From the IMG/VR virus record IMGVR_UViG_3300046804_001094, positions 1-43,869 of that record: 43,869 bases of DNA; one strand, 5' to 3'. The notes beneath the pieces were generated by a model. The model made no database searches and was not told where the DNA came from. It saw nothing but the letters and a program-made list of their open reading frames with translations. The position numbers were made by a program, and so were the translations under genes. The stretch is from a virus. Below are positions 471 through 24,110 of the stretch, one piece after another (position 1 is the stretch's first letter; each line of letters starts with the position of its first letter).

Positions 471-493
471 ATTATACAGCGAACCACTGACAT
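471..493 (-). promoter_or_regulatory. Minus-strand cassette promoter (b/a operon)
   Basis: Read on the minus strand this is ATGTCAGTGG, 7 bases, TATAAT. It is one of eight copies with the same spacing in 471-2628. The predicted transcription start is near 464, giving a leader of about 25 bases before the ATG at 439. The block sits around positions -29 to -20, closer to the -10 than a normal -35 box. Confidence 0.65.
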
Positions 494-498
494 TAGGG

Positions 499-678
499 CT
501 AATCCCATTTATCAGGTAGACCATAGGGGAACGCTTTTTCCATTGCTGATTTCCAACTTTCAGGGTCAACGCAATTAGGGCATACCCTTCTTTTAGTTTC
601 GCTGTCTATCCAAGCAGAGTTTTTAGCGTTCTTTTCGCATACAGGGCAGATGTCTAAGATGTTTTCATTAGTGTTCAT
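499..678 (-). CDS. Zinc-ribbon mini-protein (59 aa)
   Basis: The protein carries two CxxC knuckles, C11/C14 (CPVC) and C33/C36 (CPNC), the usual layout of a four-cysteine zinc ribbon, followed by a Trp-rich tail ending PDKWD. A role as a nucleic-acid or protein adaptor is plausible but not shown. The upstream leader (AAGAAATGAGAAATAA) is almost the same as that of the gene at 854-1042, although the proteins differ. The promoter is the cassette element at 707-729. The stop lies directly against the promoter element of the next operon. Confidence 0.7.
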   Translation of the reverse strand: MNTNENILDICPVCEKNAKNSAWIDSETKRRVCPNCVDPESWKSAMEKAFPYGLPDKWD

Positions 679-706
679 TTATTTCTCATTTCTTTTATCT
701 ATTTAT

Positions 707-729
707 AGTATAAGGCTAACCACTGACAT
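707..729 (-). promoter_or_regulatory. Minus-strand cassette promoter
   Basis: Read on the minus strand this is ATGTCAGTGG, 7 bases, TATACT. It lies 28 bases upstream of the gene at 499-678, which it should drive. Confidence 0.65.
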
Positions 730-782
730 TTACCCCTGTTTTTAGGGGATTTTTATGGTGTTTCGTAGTATTGTTACCAATT

Positions 783-836
783 TGTTACAAAAAGCCTCGG
801 GCAATTTTTTGAGGTAGTAGCAAAATTACTACACAC
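783..836 (-). repeat. Two-hairpin intergenic element, diverged copy 2
   Basis: This copy follows the stop of the gene at 854-1042. It has a perfect GTAGTA/TACTAC hairpin (814-819 and 827-832) where other copies have TGTC/GACA. It keeps the CTCGGGCAA block seen at 16-24, and its other stem is changed. On the minus strand a CCTC/GAGG stem is followed by CTTTTT, so this copy could act as an intrinsic terminator. It has no DnaA-box sequence. Confidence 0.45.
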
Positions 837-853
837 AAAAAACTTTTTTATTT

Positions 854-1042
854 TTACTCACTTCCGTATAAGCGTATGTCATTCCACAAATCGCAAGCGT
901 AGCAACTGTTGATGAGTATTTTATTTGGAATGATAGTTCCAATTCCATTTGGATTTGGATACGGTTTAGGTTGCTTCCACGAATTAGTTGTAGCAACATT
1001 TTCACAATTTGCGAATTCGCATTTTACATTTTCATTTGTCAT
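854..1042 (-). CDS. Cys-rich zinc-binding mini-protein (62 aa)
   Basis: Cysteines at 8, 13, 47 and 50 (CYAC) could bind one zinc ion. The protein begins MTNENVKCEF and has a Pro/Asn-rich middle. A longer frame from 1054 adds four residues. I prefer the ATG at 1042 because its upstream sequence then aligns with the leader of the gene at 499-678. No cassette promoter lies in the 126 bases upstream, so it may be read through from the gene at 1169-1288. Confidence 0.7.
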   Translation of the reverse strand: MTNENVKCEFANCENVATTNSWKQPKPYPNPNGIGTIIPNKILINSCYACDLWNDIRLYGSE

Positions 1043-1113
1043 TTTATTTCTCATTTCTTTTTATTACTAATTTTATTTTTGTTGCTGGCAGTTTAGTTAT
1101 TTATTTGCTGATT

Positions 1114-1153
1114 AGTTTATTTGCTATTTCTAGGCTCACCTAATCAGGCTCAC
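1114..1153. repeat. Short direct repeat in the 1043-1168 gap
   Basis: The octamer AGGCTCAC occurs twice, about 13 bases apart, followed by ACTAAC-type repeats. This is the only visible structure in the gap upstream of the gene at 854-1042. It may be an operator or a promoter of a different type. Confidence 0.3.
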
Positions 1154-1168
1154 TAACTAAACTAAGTC

Positions 1169-1288
1169 TTACTTATTTAGTTTGTTATACAACGCCATAA
1201 GTTCGTCAAACTCGCTTTCCAGCATTGTATCGCTTTGAGCAATACGCATTAGTTCGTTGTATCTAAGTTTCATTTCGTTTAGTGTCAT
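1169..1288 (-). CDS. Hypothetical helical mini-protein (39 aa)
   Basis: The frame begins MTLNEMKLRY and ends YNKLNK. It is charged and probably helical throughout, with no Cys. It is supported by a strong AGAAAGG ribosome site and by the cassette promoter at 1314-1336. Its leader resembles that of the gene at 2455-2577. No family is recognised. Confidence 0.6.
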   Translation of the reverse strand: MTLNEMKLRYNELMRIAQSDTMLESEFDELMALYNKLNK

Positions 1289-1303
1289 TATTGACCTTTC
1301 TTT

Positions 1304-1317
1304 CTATACTTGTATAG
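1304..1317. promoter_or_regulatory. Palindrome at a predicted transcription start
   Basis: CTATAC and GTATAG form a perfect inverted repeat with a 2-base centre. It overlaps the -10 (1314-1319) and predicted start of the promoter for the gene at 1169-1288. It is a candidate repressor site. Confidence 0.35.
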
Positions 1318-1336
1318 TATCAGCGACCACTGACAT
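1314..1336 (-). promoter_or_regulatory. Minus-strand cassette promoter
   Basis: Read on the minus strand this is ATGTCAGTGG, 7 bases, TACTAT. It starts 12 bases past the stop of the gene at 1348-1455 and should drive the gene at 1169-1288. Confidence 0.65.
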
Positions 1337-1347
1337 TAGGGGACTAT

Positions 1348-1455
1348 TTATAGGGTATTTAGTAGGTGTGTTGATAACAAATAGATAACAATACTGCCTA
1401 CTGTTCCCAATAGTGTCCCTAGTGCTAGGCACTTGATTAGTGTAAGTTCTTTCAT
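1348..1455 (-). CDS. Single-pass membrane mini-protein (35 aa), probably leaderless
   Basis: The protein begins MKELTLIKC and is hydrophobic from about residue 9 to 31, so it is probably one membrane span with a short tail. The -10 (TACTGT, 1462-1467) ends six bases before the ATG, so the predicted first transcribed base is the A of the ATG. No Shine-Dalgarno site fits in that space. Leaderless translation is common in Actinobacteria. Its function is unknown. Confidence 0.55.
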   Translation of the reverse strand: MKELTLIKCLALGTLLGTVGSIVIYLLSTHLLNTL

Positions 1456-1461
1456 AGTTAT

Positions 1462-1484
1462 ACAGTATCACCTACCACTGACAT
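1462..1484 (-). promoter_or_regulatory. Minus-strand cassette promoter, leaderless
   Basis: Read on the minus strand this is ATGTCAGTGG, 7 bases, TACTGT, with the ATG of the next gene six bases further on. Confidence 0.6.
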
Positions 1485-1540
1485 TAGGGGACTATTTATA
1501 GGGGTTTCTTAGGGTGTGTTGTAAATCTTAACCATTTTGT

Positions 1541-1597
1541 TATAAGTTATCCACAGGCTCCCGACCCCGAAATCGGGGGTATGTCAAGCGACACACC
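1541..1597 (-). repeat. Two-hairpin intergenic element, copy 3, with DnaA-box sequence
   Basis: This copy sits 9 bases past the stop of the gene at 1606-1785. It contains TTATCCACA (1547-1555), a perfect hairpin CCCCGA/TCGGGG (1565-1570 and 1573-1578) and a second stem TGTC/GACA with a 4-base loop (1582-1593). Compared with the copies at 1-54 and 2391-2447, the flanks are conserved while the first stem is replaced on both arms. Confidence 0.55.
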
Positions 1598-1605
1598 AGC
1601 AAAGA

Positions 1606-1785
1606 CTACTCTTCACTACATTCAGAGCAATCGCAATTAGCAACTGAACCATAGTTATCACAGAACCAAGTGAACGTTTCACAACGCAACTCACCTTTGT
1701 TATGCTTTGCTAACACTTCTGTTTCGTGTTCATTGCTTAGGTCAAAGGAAGAACCGCAACCAGCACATTCAAAGTATTCATTCAT
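1606..1785 (-). CDS. Cys/His-rich mini-protein (59 aa)
   Basis: The protein has nine candidate metal ligands: C7, C10, H20, H28, C35, C42, C51, C53 and C56. The first pair is a CAGCG knuckle typical of zinc ribbons, and the tail is CDCSEC. Two zinc sites are possible. Its leader and promoter are almost identical to those of the neighbouring gene at 1839-1979, yet the two proteins are unrelated. No family is recognised. Confidence 0.7.
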   Translation of the reverse strand: MNEYFECAGCGSSFDLSNEHETEVLAKHNKGELRCETFTWFCDNYGSVANCDCSECSEE

Positions 1786-1815
1786 TTATTTATTTCCTAT
1801 TCTTTAGATGTTATT

Positions 1816-1838
1816 AGTATAAGTATAGCCACTGACAT
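1816..1838 (-). promoter_or_regulatory. Minus-strand cassette promoter
   Basis: Read on the minus strand this is ATGTCAGTGG, 7 bases, TATACT. It directly abuts the stop codon of the upstream gene (1839-1841). Confidence 0.65.
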
Positions 1839-1979
1839 TTACTCTGACAGATGTTCTGTCCACTCATCACCAAACTTAGCAAGTCTAGCAACTTCATCCC
1901 AGAATGCCTTGCCATCTAGTTCTGAGTATTGTGCTAGGTCTGTTGCGATTTCTAGTTCTAGTTCTGTTAGTTCTGACAT
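1839..1979 (-). CDS. Acidic helical mini-protein (46 aa)
   Basis: The protein begins MSELTELELE and is strongly acidic and probably helical, with no Cys. Small acidic phage proteins often act as DNA mimics or inhibitors of host enzymes, but there is no direct evidence for that here. The leader has AGGAAAT before the ATG. The leader and promoter nearly duplicate those of the gene at 1606-1785. Confidence 0.65.
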   Translation of the reverse strand: MSELTELELEIATDLAQYSELDGKAFWDEVARLAKFGDEWTEHLSE

Positions 1980-2012
1980 TTATTTATTTCCTATTCTTTA
2001 TTTGATGTTATT

Positions 2013-2035
2013 AGTATAAGGGATACCACTGACAC
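2013..2035 (-). promoter_or_regulatory. Minus-strand cassette promoter
   Basis: Read on the minus strand this is GTGTCAGTGG, 7 bases, TATACT. It differs from the consensus at the first base. It lies two bases past the stop of the gene at 2038-2274 and drives the gene at 1839-1979. Confidence 0.65.
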
Positions 2036-2037
2036 GA

Positions 2038-2274
2038 CTACTTGTCGCAGTCAGGGTATCTCTCGTTGTGATACTTTAGAGCAACCTTAGTGCCATAGCG
2101 ACCACACTTAGAGCAAGGGAACTTAGGGAATAGTGGTTGAGCAACAGGCTCATTAGACTTGTTATCAACAGGGGTAGAGTATCCTAACCCCTTGCTCTCC
2201 CAATACAATTCTCTTGCGTATTCCTTATCCCAAGTTTCTTGGTAAAGGCTCTCATTGTTATCATAGTAAGCCAT
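2038..2274 (-). CDS. CCHC zinc-finger protein (78 aa)
   Basis: The N-terminal half is polar and aromatic (MAYYDNNESL). The C-terminal 28 residues hold C54, C57, H69 and C76, which fits a single zinc finger of the CxxC-x11-H-x6-C kind found at the ends of small phage proteins. The ribosome site is GAAAGGAG close to the ATG. The promoter is at 2311-2333. A nucleic-acid-binding role is plausible but not shown. Confidence 0.75.
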   Translation of the reverse strand: MAYYDNNESLYQETWDKEYARELYWESKGLGYSTPVDNKSNEPVAQPLFPKFPCSKCGRYGTKVALKYHNERYPDCDK

Positions 2275-2310
2275 TTGTGGCTCCTTTCTTATTTATCTTT
2301 ATCTATTATT

Positions 2311-2333
2311 ACATTACACCTAACCACTGACAT
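2311..2333 (-). promoter_or_regulatory. Minus-strand cassette promoter
   Basis: Read on the minus strand this is ATGTCAGTGG, 7 bases, TAATGT. The -10 is weak, but position and spacing match the other copies. Confidence 0.6.
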
Positions 2334-2390
2334 TAGGGGGTCATTTATAGGAGTTTCTTAGGGTGTGTCGTGTATTGTTATCATTTCGTT

Positions 2391-2447
2391 ATAAGTTATC
2401 CACAGGTGCCCGCCACATTTTGTGGGGTATGTTAAGTTAGACACGCC
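2391..2447 (-). repeat. Two-hairpin intergenic element, copy 4, with DnaA-box sequence
   Basis: This copy is 7 bases past the stop of the gene at 2455-2577. It contains TTATCCACA (2396-2404), a hairpin CCACA/TGTGG with a 3-base loop (2413-2425), and the block TAAGTTAGACACGCC shared with copy 1. The first stem again differs in sequence from the other copies but keeps its pairing. Confidence 0.55.
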
Positions 2448-2454
2448 AGAAACT

Positions 2455-2577
2455 TTAGAAGTTTTCTGGACAGCCATAAGCGTTGTGGCAGATTACACAA
2501 ACCTGTTCGCCACATTCAACACAGTATTTGAACTCCACTAAGTTATCGCAAATTTCACACATTTGAACATTCATCAT
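2455..2577 (-). CDS. Seven-cysteine zinc mini-protein (40 aa)
   Basis: The protein has Cys at 7, 10, 19, 22, 27, 30 and 36, arranged as CEIC, CVEC, CVIC and a last single C, in only 40 residues. The pattern recalls a B-box or treble-clef mini-domain that binds one or two zinc ions. Two in-frame ATGs lie side by side (2575-2577 and 2572-2574); the first is taken. A strong GAAAGG site and the cassette promoter at 2606-2628 support expression. Its function is unknown. Confidence 0.7.
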   Translation of the reverse strand: MMNVQMCEICDNLVEFKYCVECGEQVCVICHNAYGCPENF

Positions 2578-2605
2578 TTTTTATTACCTTTCTTTCTATA
2601 CTTTT

Positions 2606-2628
2606 ACAATAGCATAGGGGTCTGACAT
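2606..2628 (-). promoter_or_regulatory. Minus-strand cassette promoter, variant
   Basis: Read on the minus strand this is ATGTCAGACC, 7 bases, TATTGT. The last three bases of the block differ from the consensus, but spacing and placement are the same. Confidence 0.5.
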
Positions 2629-2834
2629 TGGACACGCTTTTAGGGGGTGTGTCGTGCTATGTTATCAAAATGTTATAAATGTCCCTATTTGATAGGCGTG
2701 TGGTGTGCTCACTATTATCTTCATTCTTGTAGTGTGTAGTCGTGTATCATACACATTAGCAAAATATTCAGAAATGTATCAAAATGAAATATAAAAAATT
2801 TTTCAGATTTTGGCGGTATACAGAAAACCTGGAC

Positions 2835-2990
2835 TTACCTTCTCTTGACAAAATATCCTCCAGCAGCATCATATTTCTTATACCAATATGCTTTACATTT
2901 ATAGCATTTCCAATCTCTATTAGACATATACCAAAGTGGCTCTGGTGGATTACATCTATGTACTTTATTTCTATTAAATAATTTTAACAT
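2835..2990 (-). CDS. Cys-containing mini-protein (51 aa), coupled to the HTH gene
   Basis: The frame begins MLKLFNRNKV and ends GYFVKRR. It has C13, C29 and C32 (CYKC) with many Trp and Tyr, like a small zinc ribbon. Its ATG overlaps the stop of the upstream HTH gene by one base (TAATG), as at 279-283. A plus-strand frame covers the same bases but lacks a ribosome site and is taken as a shadow. The pair may be a split or worn-down DNA-binding module. Confidence 0.6.
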   Translation of the reverse strand: MLKLFNRNKVHRCNPPEPLWYMSNRDWKCYKCKAYWYKKYDAAGGYFVKRR

Positions 2991-3172
2991 TATGGTAGCC
3001 TAACGTCTGGGGTATTGCGAAGCAATCCATGCTCAATCAGCCAATAATTAACTAACTTATACGACACTTTGTTCTGATTGGCTATTTCCTTTGATGTCAT
3101 CTTGGCTGCAACGCATGCTTCAAGATATTCTTTTGACTCGTAATGCTTGATATATGGGACTTTTTCTTCCAT
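2990..3172 (-). CDS. Small helix-turn-helix protein (60 aa)
   Basis: Residues 26-50 (MTSKEIANQNKVS then YWLIEHGLL) match the homeodomain-like helix-turn-helix found at the start of many phage HNH endonucleases and small regulators. No nuclease motif follows. The start has an AGAGAG site and an extended -10 promoter at 3199-3204. It is the first gene of the minus-strand block and could regulate it, though that is inference. Confidence 0.7.
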   Translation of the reverse strand: MEEKVPYIKHYESKEYLEACVAAKMTSKEIANQNKVSYKLVNYWLIEHGLLRNTPDVRLP

Positions 3173-3198: not shown

Positions 3199-3204
3199 AT
3201 TATA
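3199..3204 (-). promoter_or_regulatory. Extended -10 promoter, minus strand
   Basis: The minus strand reads TGCTATAAT about 27 bases upstream of the HTH gene. It lacks the ATGTCAGTGG block of the other minus-strand promoters, so this gene may be controlled separately from them. Confidence 0.6.
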
Positions 3205-4856: not shown

Positions 4857-5789
4857 ATGAAAATTGCAGTTTACACAATTGCATTAAATGAAGAAGAATT
4901 TGTAGAGAGGTGGTACAATTCCGTCAAAGATGCTGACTATATTCTGATTGCCGATACAGGCTCTACTGACCGTACCGTTGAGATTGCAAAATCTCTTGGA
5001 ATTAACGTATTCAACATTTCTATCAAACCATTTCGCTTTGACGATGCTCGTAATGCAGCCCTAGCCCTTATTCCAGGAGACATAGATATGTGCGTATCTC
5101 TTGACATGGATGAAGTAATCTCAGAGGGCTGGAGAGCAGAACTTGAAAAGATGACTGGTAATCAGATTACTTATGTTTTTAATAATGACCATGCTAAGTA
5201 TAGTTTTGTGAATAATCGTATTCATTCTCGTCATGGATACCGCTGGAAATTCCTAATGCACGAGGGTATCGTTCAAGATAGAACCTTGCCAGACATCCAG
5301 TTCTGTAACATGATTGAAGTAACGCACATTCCAAATCGTGACAAACCAAGAAATCAATATTTAGATTTAATTAAGGCTGCTTTAGACGAGAATCCAAACA
5401 TTACAAGATATTACAAATATTATACCGATGCCCTTGTTTCTTTAGAAAGATTTGAAGAGGCTGAAGAATATTATTTAAAGATGCTAGAGGTTCCAGGATT
5501 TAGTAATTACGATTCTGCACATGTATATAGAATCTTGTCTAAAATAATTCCAGATAAATTTGGTGAATACATCCTGTGTTGTCTTGGGGAAGCACCAGAT
5601 AGACGTGAGCCATATTACTATATTGCTAGGTGGTATGGAGAGCAAGAAAGATGGGAAGAATGTTTGGATTGGTGTGAGAAAGCACTAAATATCCAAAATA
5701 TAACAGTTGATATATTTAAAGATAATGACGCTTGGGGAGAACCTATGTTAGAATTATATAAGAACGCAAAGGAAAAGGCTACAAAATAA
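4857..5789 (+). CDS. Family 2 glycosyltransferase with helical C-domain, copy 1 (310 aa)
   Basis: The N-terminal 110 residues are a GT-A domain: TIALNEEEFV, the nucleotide-binding ADTGSTD (32-38) and the metal-binding DMD (83-85). The C-terminal half has TPR-like helices (YYKYYTDALVSLERFEEAEEYY). It resembles the SunS-like transferases that put sugars on peptides, and phage copies often sit beside tail genes. The likely target is a phage structural protein or a host surface component, which is inference. Its stop overlaps the ATG of its paralogue. Confidence 0.85.
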   Translation: MKIAVYTIALNEEEFVERWYNSVKDADYILIADTGSTDRTVEIAKSLGINVFNISIKPFRFDDARNAALALIPGDIDMCVSLDMDEVISEGWRAELEKMTGNQITYVFNNDHAKYSFVNNRIHSRHGYRWKFLMHEGIVQDRTLPDIQFCNMIEVTHIPNRDKPRNQYLDLIKAALDENPNITRYYKYYTDALVSLERFEEAEEYYLKMLEVPGFSNYDSAHVYRILSKIIPDKFGEYILCCLGEAPDRREPYYYIARWYGEQERWEECLDWCEKALNIQNITVDIFKDNDAWGEPMLELYKNAKEKATK

Positions 5790-6823
5790 TGAAGATTGCA
5801 GTATACACAATTGCTCTTAATGAAGAGAAGCATGTCGAACGCTGGTATAATTCTGCTAAAGATGCAGACTATTTGCTTATTGCAGATACTGGCTCAACCG
5901 ATAAAACAAAACGCATTGCCAAGAAACTTGGAATTAAGGTAGTAGATATATCAATCAAACCATGGCGTTTTGATGATGCTAGAAACGCTGCACTTGCTTT
6001 ACTACCAGATGATATAGATTATTGTATATCTATGGATATGGATGAGACACTATCAGAAGGCTGGCGTGAGTGCCTTGAAAAAATGACAGGTGACCAAATT
6101 GAATATAAATTTAATTTGACATTTAGGGATGAGGCAGAAACAGACCCAGATGAGACTTTTATTAATAACAGAATTCACAAGCGTCATGGATTTAGATGGC
6201 ATTGGCTTATGCATGAAGCAGTTCTTCCAGATAGAACCGAAAATAGAAAGCAGTTTTGCGAAGGATTAGAAGTATCACATCATCCAGACATAGAAAAATC
6301 TCGTGAACAGTATAATCAAATGATTGAAGATGCTTTTATAGAAAATCCTACAATTTCAAGATATTACATTTATCACGCATTGCAACTGCTCAGATTTAAC
6401 AGAGTAGAAGAGGCTAGAGAAGTTCTAAAATCATTAACAAAATTAAAAGATGTTAGTAATACAGACCTGGCTCTTACATATAGAGTTCTGGGAATGACTG
6501 GAAAATTTAAGATTTTAAACTATATGAGGTCAATAATTATATGTCCAACTAGAGAAACATATACGAGCATTGCAATTTACTACTATAATAAGGAAGATTG
6601 GTTCAGGGCTTACTATTTTGCAAAAAAGGCGGAATCCATTAAAATCAAAACACTAAGTATTTTTAGAGACCAATCAGTATGGAGATACCTGCCTTTTAAC
6701 ATAATGACTTCAGCCAAATACAATATGAAACTATTTAAATGGTCTAAGTCGTACAAGGTGAACAGAAAAGACATCAATATTAAGTCTCCAATATCCCAAA
6801 ACTTCAAGTTATTTGAAGACTAG
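5789..6823 (+). CDS. Family 2 glycosyltransferase, copy 2 (344 aa)
   Basis: This is a clear paralogue of the preceding gene: the first 90 residues share long stretches, including ADTGSTDKT and SMDMDE (DXD at 83-85). It has an extra insert near residues 110-125 and a longer basic C-terminus. The C-terminal halves are more different than the catalytic domains, as expected if acceptor or partner choice diverged after duplication. It begins with TAATG coupling. Confidence 0.85.
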   Translation: MKIAVYTIALNEEKHVERWYNSAKDADYLLIADTGSTDKTKRIAKKLGIKVVDISIKPWRFDDARNAALALLPDDIDYCISMDMDETLSEGWRECLEKMTGDQIEYKFNLTFRDEAETDPDETFINNRIHKRHGFRWHWLMHEAVLPDRTENRKQFCEGLEVSHHPDIEKSREQYNQMIEDAFIENPTISRYYIYHALQLLRFNRVEEAREVLKSLTKLKDVSNTDLALTYRVLGMTGKFKILNYMRSIIICPTRETYTSIAIYYYNKEDWFRAYYFAKKAESIKIKTLSIFRDQSVWRYLPFNIMTSAKYNMKLFKWSKSYKVNRKDINIKSPISQNFKLFED

Positions 6824-15824: not shown

Positions 15825-15852
15825 TTGACAAATCCTAAAACTGTGGTATAAT
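15825..15852 (+). promoter_or_regulatory. Full sigma-70-type promoter for the reductase
   Basis: TTGACA, 16 bases, TATAAT with an upstream TGG. This is the best canonical promoter in the window. The leader has GGAAAGGTGG before ATG 15887. Confidence 0.8.
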
Positions 15853-15886: not shown

Positions 15887-17926
15887 ATGTCGGAATTTTT
15901 TTCTTTTACACTCCCAACAGACTTTGTAGAAAAGTACAAATCGTTGGAATCACCCTTTGGATTCGTGGATGCAGGTGGCAACGCACTAGGTGAAATTACC
16001 TTTGTTCGCACTTACTCACGAGTCAAAGAAGACGGAACCAAAGAACGCTGGTACGAAGTTGTACGCAGAGTTATTGAAGGTATGTATTCTGTCCAGAAAA
16101 ACCATGCAAAGGAGAATCGTCTCCCATGGAATGATTACAAGGCACAGAAGTCAGCACAAGAAGCATTTGACCGTATGTTCAATCTAAAATGGACACCTCC
16201 AGGTCGTGGAATGTGGACATTCGGTACCCCACTAACAATGGAGAAGCGTAATTCAGCGGCTCTGCAGAATTGTGCGATGGTATCTACAAAAGACCTAGAC
16301 AAGAATGACCCAGGTGCCCTATTTGCATGGGTAATGGATGCTCTTATGCTAGGTATTGGTGTTGGTTTTGATACCCTTGGAAAAGACAAGAACTTTGGTA
16401 TCTATGAGCCAACTGAGCCAGAAGTTACTTATGTTATCCCTGACACTCGTGAAGGATGGGTAGAAGCAACTCGCTTGCTAATCAACTCATATCTTCGTGC
16501 AGGTCAGAATATTCAGAAATTTGATTATTCAGAGATTCGTCCAGAAGGTGCTCCAATTAAGGGATTTGGTGGAGTTGCATCTGGACCAGCACCACTAATC
16601 AAACTACACGAAAAGATTTCTCATGTTCTAGGTTCTAGAGCAGGAGAGACACTAGATGCTCGTGCCATTGTTGACCTAGTTAACCTTATTGGCACTTGTG
16701 TGGTATCTGGTAACGTCAGACGTTCTGCCACCCTTGCTTTGGGGGCAGAAGGAGACGATGACTTCCTAAACCTAAAGAATCCAGAAGTATTCCCTGAGCG
16801 TAACTCTTATGACCCAGAGAATCCTGGATGGGCTTGGATGTCAAACAATTCAGTTTCTGCAACTGTTGGCATGGATTACTCAAAATATGTTGACCGAATT
16901 GCTGACAATGGAGAGCCAGGTTTTATCTGGCTAGATGTTGCTAGAAACTATGGTCGTTTGGCTGATGCTCCAGATGGAAAGGATTTCCGTGTTATGGGAT
17001 TCAATCCATGTGCAGAACAGCCATTGGAATCATATGAACTATGTACACTTGTAGAGGTTCACCTAAATCGTCACGATTCAAAGGAAGACTTCTTGCGTAC
17101 ATTGAAGTTTGCCTATTTGTATGGTAAGACAGTTACTCTTCTTCCTACACACTGGCAACAGACCAACGGTATCATGCAGAGAAACCGTAGAATCGGAACA
17201 TCTCTAACTGGTATCGCATCATTTGCTGATGAGCATGGTCTTCCAACTGTCCGTCAATGGATGGATGAGGGCTATAAAAAGATTCGCTTCTATGACAATA
17301 AGTATTCAGAGTGGCTATGTGTTCGTGAATCAATTCGTGTAACCACAGTTAAGCCATCTGGTTCTGTGTCAATTCTTTCTGGTGCTACCCCTGGTGTTCA
17401 CTGGGGTCCAGGCGGAAAGTTCTATCTAAGAGCAATCCGCTTTAGCAACCAAGACCCAATGCTTCATTTATTTAAAGCAGCAGGGTACAAGATTGAAGCA
17501 GACCTTGTATCAGCAAATACTTCCGTAGTCTATTTCCCAATTGCATCTGGACACAAGAGAGCAGAAAAGGATGTCACTCTATTCGAGAAGACAGCACTTG
17601 CTGCTACCGCCCAGAAGTATTGGTCAGACAACGGAGTTTCCGTAACCCTGTCATTTGACAAGGAAAAGGAAACACAGCATATCACTTCTGTTCTAAATAT
17701 GTATGAGGGTCAGTTAAAGGCTGTATCGTTCCTATCAATGGGCAATGATGTCTACCCACAGCAACCATATACAGAAATTACAGAAGAAGATTATGACTAC
17801 TACATTGGTAGATTGGCAAAGATTGATTTCTCTGCTATCTATGATGGTGTAGATAATCTGGAAGCACAAGGCGAAGCCTACTGTACCACCGATTACTGTG
17901 AAATCAAGATTCCAGATAAAAACTAA
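15887..17926 (+). CDS. nrdJ: AdoCbl-dependent ribonucleoside-triphosphate reductase, monomeric class II (679 aa)
   Basis: This enzyme turns ribonucleotides into deoxyribonucleotides using adenosylcobalamin. Its length is close to the Lactobacillus leichmannii enzyme (about 740). Visible active-site elements are NPCAE (Asn373, Cys375, Glu377), the redox pair Cys129 and Cys386 (Cys386 is 11 residues after Cys375, as in that enzyme), and the C-terminal pair Cys666 and Cys671. TVKPSGSVSILSG is also conserved. It has its own promoter and terminator among late genes and would supply dNTPs during infection. Confidence 0.93.
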   Translation: MSEFFSFTLPTDFVEKYKSLESPFGFVDAGGNALGEITFVRTYSRVKEDGTKERWYEVVRRVIEGMYSVQKNHAKENRLPWNDYKAQKSAQEAFDRMFNLKWTPPGRGMWTFGTPLTMEKRNSAALQNCAMVSTKDLDKNDPGALFAWVMDALMLGIGVGFDTLGKDKNFGIYEPTEPEVTYVIPDTREGWVEATRLLINSYLRAGQNIQKFDYSEIRPEGAPIKGFGGVASGPAPLIKLHEKISHVLGSRAGETLDARAIVDLVNLIGTCVVSGNVRRSATLALGAEGDDDFLNLKNPEVFPERNSYDPENPGWAWMSNNSVSATVGMDYSKYVDRIADNGEPGFIWLDVARNYGRLADAPDGKDFRVMGFNPCAEQPLESYELCTLVEVHLNRHDSKEDFLRTLKFAYLYGKTVTLLPTHWQQTNGIMQRNRRIGTSLTGIASFADEHGLPTVRQWMDEGYKKIRFYDNKYSEWLCVRESIRVTTVKPSGSVSILSGATPGVHWGPGGKFYLRAIRFSNQDPMLHLFKAAGYKIEADLVSANTSVVYFPIASGHKRAEKDVTLFEKTALAATAQKYWSDNGVSVTLSFDKEKETQHITSVLNMYEGQLKAVSFLSMGNDVYPQQPYTEITEEDYDYYIGRLAKIDFSAIYDGVDNLEAQGEAYCTTDYCEIKIPDKN

Positions 17927-22116: not shown

Positions 22117-22512
22117 ATGAATATAGACACTAACAAAGATATTGGTCCTGTCATGCCCAATCAAATTGGCAAAACAAAGATTTCCGTTATAGAAGAACCA
22201 TTCTCAGACTATGGAATTTATGTTTGGCAGTTGCGTTCTGGCAAGGTTTTGACAGATGACCATGGAAATGCCCTTAGCATTGACTCAATGCGTGATGACC
22301 AATCAAGAATTACCCTATTGCAGAAGGAAGCGTCTTGGCTTGGTTTCCCAGATGGTAGACCAATTTTTATGCCAAATGTTCGCAAGGTATCCGATGAAGA
22401 GTACTCAGAGCAACTAGACCGCATGGCTCAAGGATACATTCCATCGGAAACAGACCTTGGTGCAATTATTGATGCAAAGAAGACATTTGACAAATTTGGA
22501 AGTGATGACTAA
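22117..22512 (+). CDS. Hypothetical head-region protein (131 aa)
   Basis: The protein begins MNIDTNKDIGP and is acidic, with a conserved-looking core (WQLRSGKVLTDDHGNALSI). A GTG start at 22111 would add two residues, but the promoter spacing favours ATG 22117. Its stop overlaps the portal start, so it is translated with the portal. A terminase is often found in this place, but this protein has no ATPase or nuclease motif. Its role is unknown. Confidence 0.65.
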   Translation: MNIDTNKDIGPVMPNQIGKTKISVIEEPFSDYGIYVWQLRSGKVLTDDHGNALSIDSMRDDQSRITLLQKEASWLGFPDGRPIFMPNVRKVSDEEYSEQLDRMAQGYIPSETDLGAIIDAKKTFDKFGSDD

Positions 22513-24110
22513 TGAGTTATTATGAATATGCAAACACTCCTGCTCGCCTAGATGAAGTGCCAGAAGATAGAAATCAATTTGCAGACTTAGACCCTTTTAC
22601 AAAGTCATGGGATGACATCAAGAGTCTAAGTGGCATGAATACTAATTTCAAGCGTAGAAGTGCTAGGATGTCAAAGGCTCTTGGAGATGATGCATATTTA
22701 GAATCAGCAGGTGCAATTCAAACTGGTATTAATGGAGCACAATCAAACGCTATTAATCCAGGTATAGTATTTCGTAATGCATATTCATTGTTTGATGTCA
22801 TTACCCCTCCATACAACCTATACGAACTAGCAAGTTACTATGACACATCATTTGCTAACCATGCTGCTATCGATGCAAAAGTTGAAAATACCGTTGGTCT
22901 TGGCTATGACTTCATTGTTTCTGATAAAACAAGTCTTAAACTAGAGGCTGCTTCTGCAGACCAGATGGCTCGTGCTCGTAAGCGTATTGAGAGACTCAAG
23001 GTACAACTTCGTGATTGGCTAGAAAGTCTAAACCAAGACGAATCATTTACATCAGTACTTGAAAAGGTATTTACGGATGTTCACGCTATGGGGAACGGAT
23101 ATATTGAAGTAGGCAGAACCGTTACAGGAGAGATTGGCTATGTTGGTCACATTCCAGCATCAACTATGCGTGTTCGTAGACTTCGTGATGGATACGTTCA
23201 GATTATTGCAAATAAAGTTGTTTACTTTAGAAACTTCGGGGCAAAGAACCAAAACTATATTACTGATGACCCAAGACCTAATGAGATTATCCACATCAAG
23301 GAATACTCTCCACTAAACACTTTCTATGGTGTTCCAGACGTGCTGGCTGCTATGCCATCTCTACTTGGTGACATGCTTGCTTCACAATACAATATTGACT
23401 ACTTCAATAACAAGGCTGTTCCTCGTTATATCGTTACTCTAAAGGGTGCACAACTTACACAAGAAGCAGAAGACAAATTGTTTAGATTCCTACAAACTGG
23501 TCTAAAGGGGCAGTCACATAGGACTTTATATATTCCACTTCCAGGAGATTCAGAAACCAACAAGGTTGAGTTCAAGATGGAACCAATTGAGAATGGTGTT
23601 CAGGAAGGTTCATTTACAAAATACCGTGAGCAGAACCGTGATGACATCTTGGTAGCACACCAAGTTCCATTGTCAAAATTGGGTGGTAGCAGTTCATCAA
23701 CAATCGCTGATTCTCTAGCACAAGACCGTACATTTAAAGAGCAGGTAGCAAGACCTGCACAACGCAATCTTGAAAAAATTCTCAACAAGATTATTCGTGA
23801 AAAGACAGATATTTTAGAATTTAAGTTTAATGAACTTACACTTACTGATGAACTTGCTCAATCACAGATTCTTACAAACTATGTCAAGAATCAAATTATG
23901 GTTCCCAACGAGGCTCGTGAAGTTCTTAATTTGCCAGAACGTGAAGAAAGCGATTCTATGGTTCAACTAACTGCTAGACAGGCTACAGACGCTGCTGCAA
24001 ATAATGCAGGAAACAGAACTCGTGATGGGGAACGTCAGCAAGCACAGGCAGACAGCACTGCAACAACTGCTGGTAGAAATCCAAAGGGTGAGGGGAGACG
24101 CTCTTCATAA
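22512..24110 (+). CDS. Phage portal protein, PBSX-like (532 aa)
   Basis: The portal is the ring at the capsid vertex through which DNA passes. Diagnostic blocks include YSLFDVITPPYNLYELASYY, NEIIHIKEYSPLNTFYGVPD and the QYNIDYFNNKAVPRYIV region, typical of PBSX-type portals of siphoviruses. The C-terminus is Ala/Gln/Arg-rich and probably disordered. It starts with TAATG coupling and is followed by two promoters and the protease gene. The length is within the family range. Confidence 0.92.
   Translation: MSYYEYANTPARLDEVPEDRNQFADLDPFTKSWDDIKSLSGMNTNFKRRSARMSKALGDDAYLESAGAIQTGINGAQSNAINPGIVFRNAYSLFDVITPPYNLYELASYYDTSFANHAAIDAKVENTVGLGYDFIVSDKTSLKLEAASADQMARARKRIERLKVQLRDWLESLNQDESFTSVLEKVFTDVHAMGNGYIEVGRTVTGEIGYVGHIPASTMRVRRLRDGYVQIIANKVVYFRNFGAKNQNYITDDPRPNEIIHIKEYSPLNTFYGVPDVLAAMPSLLGDMLASQYNIDYFNNKAVPRYIVTLKGAQLTQEAEDKLFRFLQTGLKGQSHRTLYIPLPGDSETNKVEFKMEPIENGVQEGSFTKYREQNRDDILVAHQVPLSKLGGSSSSTIADSLAQDRTFKEQVARPAQRNLEKILNKIIREKTDILEFKFNELTLTDELAQSQILTNYVKNQIMVPNEAREVLNLPEREESDSMVQLTARQATDAAANNAGNRTRDGERQQAQADSTATTAGRNPKGEGRRSS

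Follow-up and report, generated by a model that had tools for sequence, protein, structure and literature searches.

The stoperators of mycobacteriophage L5 are short asymmetric repressor sites that occur in many copies and in one orientation but are not tied to a -10 hexamer. In the middle promoters of phage T4, a MotA box (wwwTGCTTtA) lies 12±1 bp from the -10 and replaces the -35 (PMC2988021). WhiB-like (Wbl) proteins bind region 4 of sigma-A (PMC10245118), and whiB is the gene by which freshwater actinophages are usually recognised (PMC6802176, PMC10202952). Very little is known of transcription takeover by phages of freshwater Actinobacteria, hosts that are among the commonest lake bacteria.

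The window considered here, namely, the whole 43,869-nucleotide stretch of DNA that was analysed, is a fragment of a virus record, as reflected in an open frame that runs past its right end. Genes encoding portal, protease and capsid proteins mark it as distant kin of the Stanwilliamsviridae, with the capsid protein sharing 41% identity with that of the Streptomyces phage Wakanda, a member of this family. A WhiB-like protein, a DUF7455 protein and an Lsr2-like mini-protein are encoded by relatives of the window, making an actinobacterial host likely. The phages bearing the box described below probably infect freshwater Actinobacteria.

Between positions 471 and 2628, a sequence-only reading had reported eight minus-strand elements, each comprising a conserved block followed at 7 bases by a TAnnnT hexamer. 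All eight were found where they had been placed, and the pattern RTGTCAG-N10-TAnnnT gave 8 matches in the window against a mean of 0.25 in shuffled sequence, with 0/100 shuffles reaching 8. A TAnnnT hexamer at 10 bp follows only these eight of the 21 TGTCAG hexamers in the window, such that the spaced element occurs nowhere else in it. The possibility that the block is common and unspaced elsewhere, which that reading had named as grounds for its own rejection, was considered and did not hold, the block being rare and always spaced. With the -10 hexamer taken as -12 to -7, the proposed position of the block at -29 to -20 holds to the base provided that the conserved A located seven bases beyond the -10 is +1; T(-1)A(+1) was seen in 8/8 cases.

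For each element, the predicted start falls 19-30 nt before a start codon or, in one case, on the start codon itself. Promoter 1 (471-493; box 484-493, -10 TATAAT at 471-476) has its predicted +1 at 464, giving a 25 nt leader, and would drive the ORF at 281-439, with that at 75-281 downstream. Promoter 2 (707-729; box 720-729, TATACT at 707-712) would start at 700, 22 nt before the ORF at 499-678, and promoter 3 (1314-1336; box 1327-1336, TACTAT at 1314-1319) at 1307, 19 nt before the ORF at 1169-1288. In promoter 4 (1462-1484; box 1475-1484, TACTGT at 1462-1467), the predicted +1 at 1455 is the A of the ATG of the ORF at 1348-1455, yielding a leaderless transcript with a leader of 0 nt. Promoter 5 (1816-1838; box 1829-1838, TATACT at 1816-1821) is predicted to start at 1809, with a 24 nt leader to the ORF at 1606-1785. 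The two variant blocks are as previously described: GTGTCAGTGG (2026-2035) belongs to promoter 6 (2013-2035; TATACT at 2013-2018, predicted +1 2006, 27 nt leader, ORF 1839-1979), and ATGTCAGACC (2619-2628) to promoter 8 (2606-2628; TATTGT at 2606-2611, predicted +1 2599, 22 nt leader, ORF 2455-2577). The latter is of the TGTCAG(A/T/C)CC form, which makes up 22% of sites in relatives. Between them, promoter 7 (2311-2333; box 2324-2333, TAATGT at 2311-2316) would start at 2304, 30 nt before the ORF at 2038-2274. All lie on the minus strand.

Other promoters in the window lack the box. The first two genes of the same minus-strand array (2835-3172), encoding a 60-residue HTH-like protein (2990-3172) and a 51-residue protein (2835-2990), are preceded by an extended -10, TGC-TATAAT, with the -10 at 3199-3204. 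As had been claimed, none of the plus-strand promoters carries the box; that of the ribonucleotide reductase gene (17926 being the last position of the ORF starting at 15887), for example, is a canonical TTGACA-N16-TATAAT with TGn at 15825-15852 on the plus strand.

The consensus and its spacing were determined in a set of 80 loci fetched solely by an array protein family, c1, so as to avoid selection by the motif itself. Of 1774 -10-like hexamers on the array strand, 411 are preceded by TGTC at exactly 12 bp, as compared to 0 and 4 at spacings shorter and longer by 1 bp, at most 22 at any other spacing and 11 at 12 bp on the opposite strand. Likewise, TGTCnG-N10-TAnnnT occurs 440 times on the array strand and once on the other, in 74 of the 80 loci; the remaining six, distant c1 loci, are without the box. 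Across 30 loci, the -10 was found at exactly 7 bases from TGTCAGTGG in 180/180 sites, and a scan of the collection with the wrong spacing (N10) returned 1 multi-hit locus, as opposed to 16 and 18 with two N7 patterns, among the matches listed.

The logo drawn from 360 distinct sites reads A(-30), A(-29), TGTC(-28 to -25), a variable -24, G(-23; 0.85), T/A(-22), GG or CC(-21, -20) and TATAAT, with T(-1; 0.54) and A(+1; 0.78) at the start region, where an ATG is often found exactly at +1. TGn is present at about half of the box promoters. Relatives thus allow the core to be corrected to wAATGTC(R)G, then (T/A)(GG or CC), N7, TATAAT and TA(+1). A TATAAT -10 and a purine start suitably placed ahead of genes are features of sigma-A-type promoters, and the eight window elements very probably represent genuine promoters, forming a distinct, phage-specific class. 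An antisense -35 (CTGACA, plus strand) was rejected as an account of the box, as the logo shows no conserved -10 at 16-18 bp upstream, and so was a coding or RNA element, given that the box sits upstream of the start site.

Although the logo of box sites contains no -35, at least 5/6 of TTGACA is found at spacers of 16-18 at 27.7% of the box sites, as compared to 1.6% at displaced spacers, and spacers 17 and 18 present a specific excess of TTG, at positions clear of the A-tract of the box. Given this retention and enrichment, sigma region 4 can probably still hold a -35 at about a quarter of the box promoters, with the box lying within the spacer; the box would, therefore, not be a plain substitute for the -35. 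In the main rival explanation, a phage repressor would use the box as its operator, set in the spacer of ordinary sigma-A promoters such that the array is silenced late in infection or in a superinfecting genome. The box indeed lies exactly between the -35 and -10 positions, about 28% of the sites keep a -35 hexamer directly upstream, and actinobacterial promoters often lack a -35 in any case. A site that works by occlusion, however, needs no single spacing or orientation, whereas here hundreds of sites maintain a base-exact register and a fixed strand; nor is the box, which is asymmetric, palindromic. Repression is, as such, considered unlikely. Because spacing and orientation are rigid, an activator is favoured.

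The element was detected in well over 70 IMG/VR contigs, with a contig containing up to 30 copies that nearly all share a strand. Most of the 31 records that were scanned end to end contain 9-30 sites, again almost exclusively in one orientation, as compared to 0-3 for a reversed-pattern control. A further 45 viral records mostly present the same pattern; two mycobacterial genomes are not above the control. Among fully read relatives, the sites are confined to a single array of small genes of about 10-17 kb, oriented opposite to the rest of the genome, in which most transcription units have their own copy of the box and predicted starts lie 17-30 nt ahead of most start codons. The hexamer is all-or-none among array promoters, with 84 presenting 6/6 positions, 5 presenting 4-5/6 and 57 presenting at most 3/6. 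No earlier report of such a class was found in the open-access literature. Judged from sequence, this promoter class is real, strong and conserved, and apparently unreported.

The base at -24, an A in the window, varies between phage lineages, yet within a lineage it is shared across the non-homologous promoters of one array (chi-square 356, as compared to a permuted mean of 144 and maximum of 202). For example, only A is found in G028 and G002, while G is found in G078 and T in L686 and L696. The preference does not correlate with GC content (r 0.07), and the control positions -17 and -40 fall inside the permuted range. Because the -24 base is lineage-specific across whole arrays, a trans-acting reader is suggested, the simplest reading being one protein per lineage with drifting specificity. 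No protein column tracking the -24 base was found in the core families, c1, c48 or DUF932, with the best DUF932 column failing to hold as a follower in a wider set.

These observations also bear on the idea that host polymerase and host factors directly recognise the box, which would serve as an extended core element of very strong immediate-early promoters. The -10, TGn and start base are host-like, and extra conserved bases are seen in T4 early promoters as well (PMC2988021). Against this, the strict form of the element is no commoner than chance predicts across 257 Gb of genomes from bacteria and archaea, where 26 matches in scattered taxa were obtained versus an estimated 30 or so expected. 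Moreover, each of 297 genomes of one actinobacterial class contains at most five scattered, mostly GC-rich matches and none contains a box array, although the true host may not be among them. The genomes of the box phages, furthermore, also contain canonical TTGACA promoters that are without the box, and the -24 base shifts by lineage. Direct reading by the host is accordingly deemed rather improbable.

The sequence-only reading had proposed that an activator or an alternative sigma factor may read the block. Fixed spacing, the logo and the shifts at -24 are indeed what a site for a trans-acting factor would present, but the sigma factor was not found. Sigma-70 region 2 (PF04542) was detected in 0/22 records, despite being detected in bacterial controls, and region 4 (PF04545) gave no match over the cut-off in 18 records, with weak sub-threshold matches to a small HTH protein of about 50 residues near the terminase. 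A phage-encoded alternative sigma factor that recognises both box and -10 would have a precedent of sorts in cultured Planktophila phages of another family, which carry a sigma-70 gene (PMC10202952). Given these searches, together with the normal TATAAT -10 and a spacing unfit for a sigma -35 element, such a factor is nonetheless highly improbable. The small HTH protein near the terminase was itself dismissed as reader, since its relatives are also found in phages without the box, as was the 60-residue HTH protein of the window, since just one of the fully read relatives compared with it had a homologue. The MotA C-terminal domain (PF09158) and AsiA (PF09010) were each detected in 0/15 records, some of them incomplete.

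By contrast, a Wbl protein (PF02467) scored over the cut-off in 12 of 18 records, and the fully read box-bearing records that gave no such match do not contain that gene region. All fully read records spanning this region thus have the gene, and in those inspected it lies behind a TTGACA promoter, which fits an early-made regulator. This WhiB-like core protein is a candidate reader. Presence of the element does not, however, track that of Wbl, as Wakanda, Karimac and NiceHouse encode Wbl, lack the box and use TTGACA promoters. Four families (c0, c1, c48 and c11) are found in all eight of the first-compared box phages and in none of these three, yet none resembles a DNA reader. The 140-residue c1, seen in all box phages covering the array, was rejected in this role, as AlphaFold predicts a long helix with no match in the PDB or to a DNA-binding fold, and given the six box-less c1 loci.

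The presence of a phage Wbl also raises the possibility that host WhiA, or a WhiA-like domain, is recruited by this protein and reads a GACA core on the opposite strand. On that strand, the box includes GACAT, close to the WhiA site GACAC (PMC3781837), and WhiA and WhiB bind the same promoters together (PMC4850268). The GACAC/GTGTC motif itself is lacking, however, with the needed G at -29 occurring in 3% of the 360 sites, and no set orientation was reported for the WhiA motif (PMC3781837), in contrast to the box. WhiA is, therefore, given very little weight as reader.

The reading that we prefer, and hold to be slightly better than an even proposition, is that sigma-A-type promoters of a phage-specific class carry the box as their upstream element, where it is bound in fixed geometry by an activator that is most likely phage-encoded. 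Host RNA polymerase would recognise the -10, half of the time with TGn, while a transcription factor would occupy the region from about -32 to -20 by binding the asymmetric sequence wAATGTC(R)G(W)(GG/CC). Once bound, this factor would contact polymerase in one fixed geometry and so activate initiation, the start being the A that lies seven bases beyond the -10. It is most likely a phage gene product, expressed from ordinary TTGACA promoters, which would place the box promoters in a delayed-early or middle class. Wbl could act on sigma-A region 4, either alone or with a DNA-reading partner. That activation rather than repression is at work, that the factor is of phage origin and when it acts are points that we infer from sequence. 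A fuller proposal, to which somewhat less than even credence is given, is that an undescribed phage factor, or a Wbl-sigma-A complex, reads a -25 box set at an invariant distance from the -10 and controls a regulon of 10-30 promoters across a clade of freshwater actinophages, with specificity at -24 shifting repeatedly together with the whole regulon. With the box, the search for a new promoter-reading factor has something concrete to aim at, and regulon-wide shifts of one base offer a natural experiment in protein-DNA co-evolution. The element also marks accessory genes directly in raw sequence and predicts starts to the base, leaderless genes included.

Compared with described systems, the box shares with L5 stoperators a repeated asymmetric site in one orientation but differs in being locked to the -10 and +1. 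Activation by WhiB7 or other WhiB-type Wbl proteins is likewise actinobacterial and involves sigma-A-type promoters, and a Wbl core gene is found in all covered box phages; WhiB7, however, reads AT-rich DNA upstream of the -35, whereas the box is of another sequence and sits downstream of the -35 position. WhiA, of the WhiAB regulon, differs in recognising GACAC, with no set orientation. The Stanwilliamsviridae (Streptomyces BE phages) and Trinavirus share virion, replication and Wbl core genes with the box phages, but lack the box and instead repeat a TTGACA-N16-18-TAnnnT promoter. The resemblance to T4 middle promoters that had been proposed holds in part. Both classes combine a sigma-70 -10, TGn at about half of the promoters and, mostly, no -35 with a short asymmetric box that opens with an A/T tract and then TG, present in many copies per phage genome. 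Where the two part is in the AATGTCRG box lying 7 bp from the -10 with no tolerance in spacing (12±1 in T4), in the quarter or so of box sites that keep a -35 hexamer, in the lack of detected MotA C-terminal domain and AsiA, and in the phages and host phylum, which are unrelated. The analogy is partial, and the box promoters would be T4-like at most in their broad logic.

Examination of the array, the small-gene region whose units mostly carry their own box promoter, revealed a repeat at the downstream ends of units in three copies (1-55, 1543-1600 and 2393-2450 of the window), each with GTTATCCACA, a GC hairpin further on and, beyond it, ATGTYAAG-GACAC. Every copy is possibly a terminator for minus-strand transcripts. 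For ORF 854-1054, no box promoter was found apart from an upstream candidate (1040-1095, minus strand), where TGCCAG, set one base closer than usual to TAAAAT, may represent a degenerate box.

Several arrays carry, at their downstream end, the gene of a 49-aa protein resembling the Lsr2 DNA-binding domain; it was seen at locus L153 (around 2480-2730, minus strand) and in the relative phages G014 (22480-22671), G008 and G024. The promoter of this gene is canonical, conserved and box-free, and the same promoter occurs in G011.

Elsewhere in the window, two tandem, mutually related glycosyltransferase-like genes (4857-6823) have close relatives in other box phages. The ribonucleotide reductase gene (15887-17926), lying within the structural gene cluster, has its own canonical promoter, nearly identical to that in G028, a close relative. 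Distant relatives of the array protein c1 (140 aa) and of DUF932 were seen at L713, L719 and L725-L728, in phages having neither box nor array.
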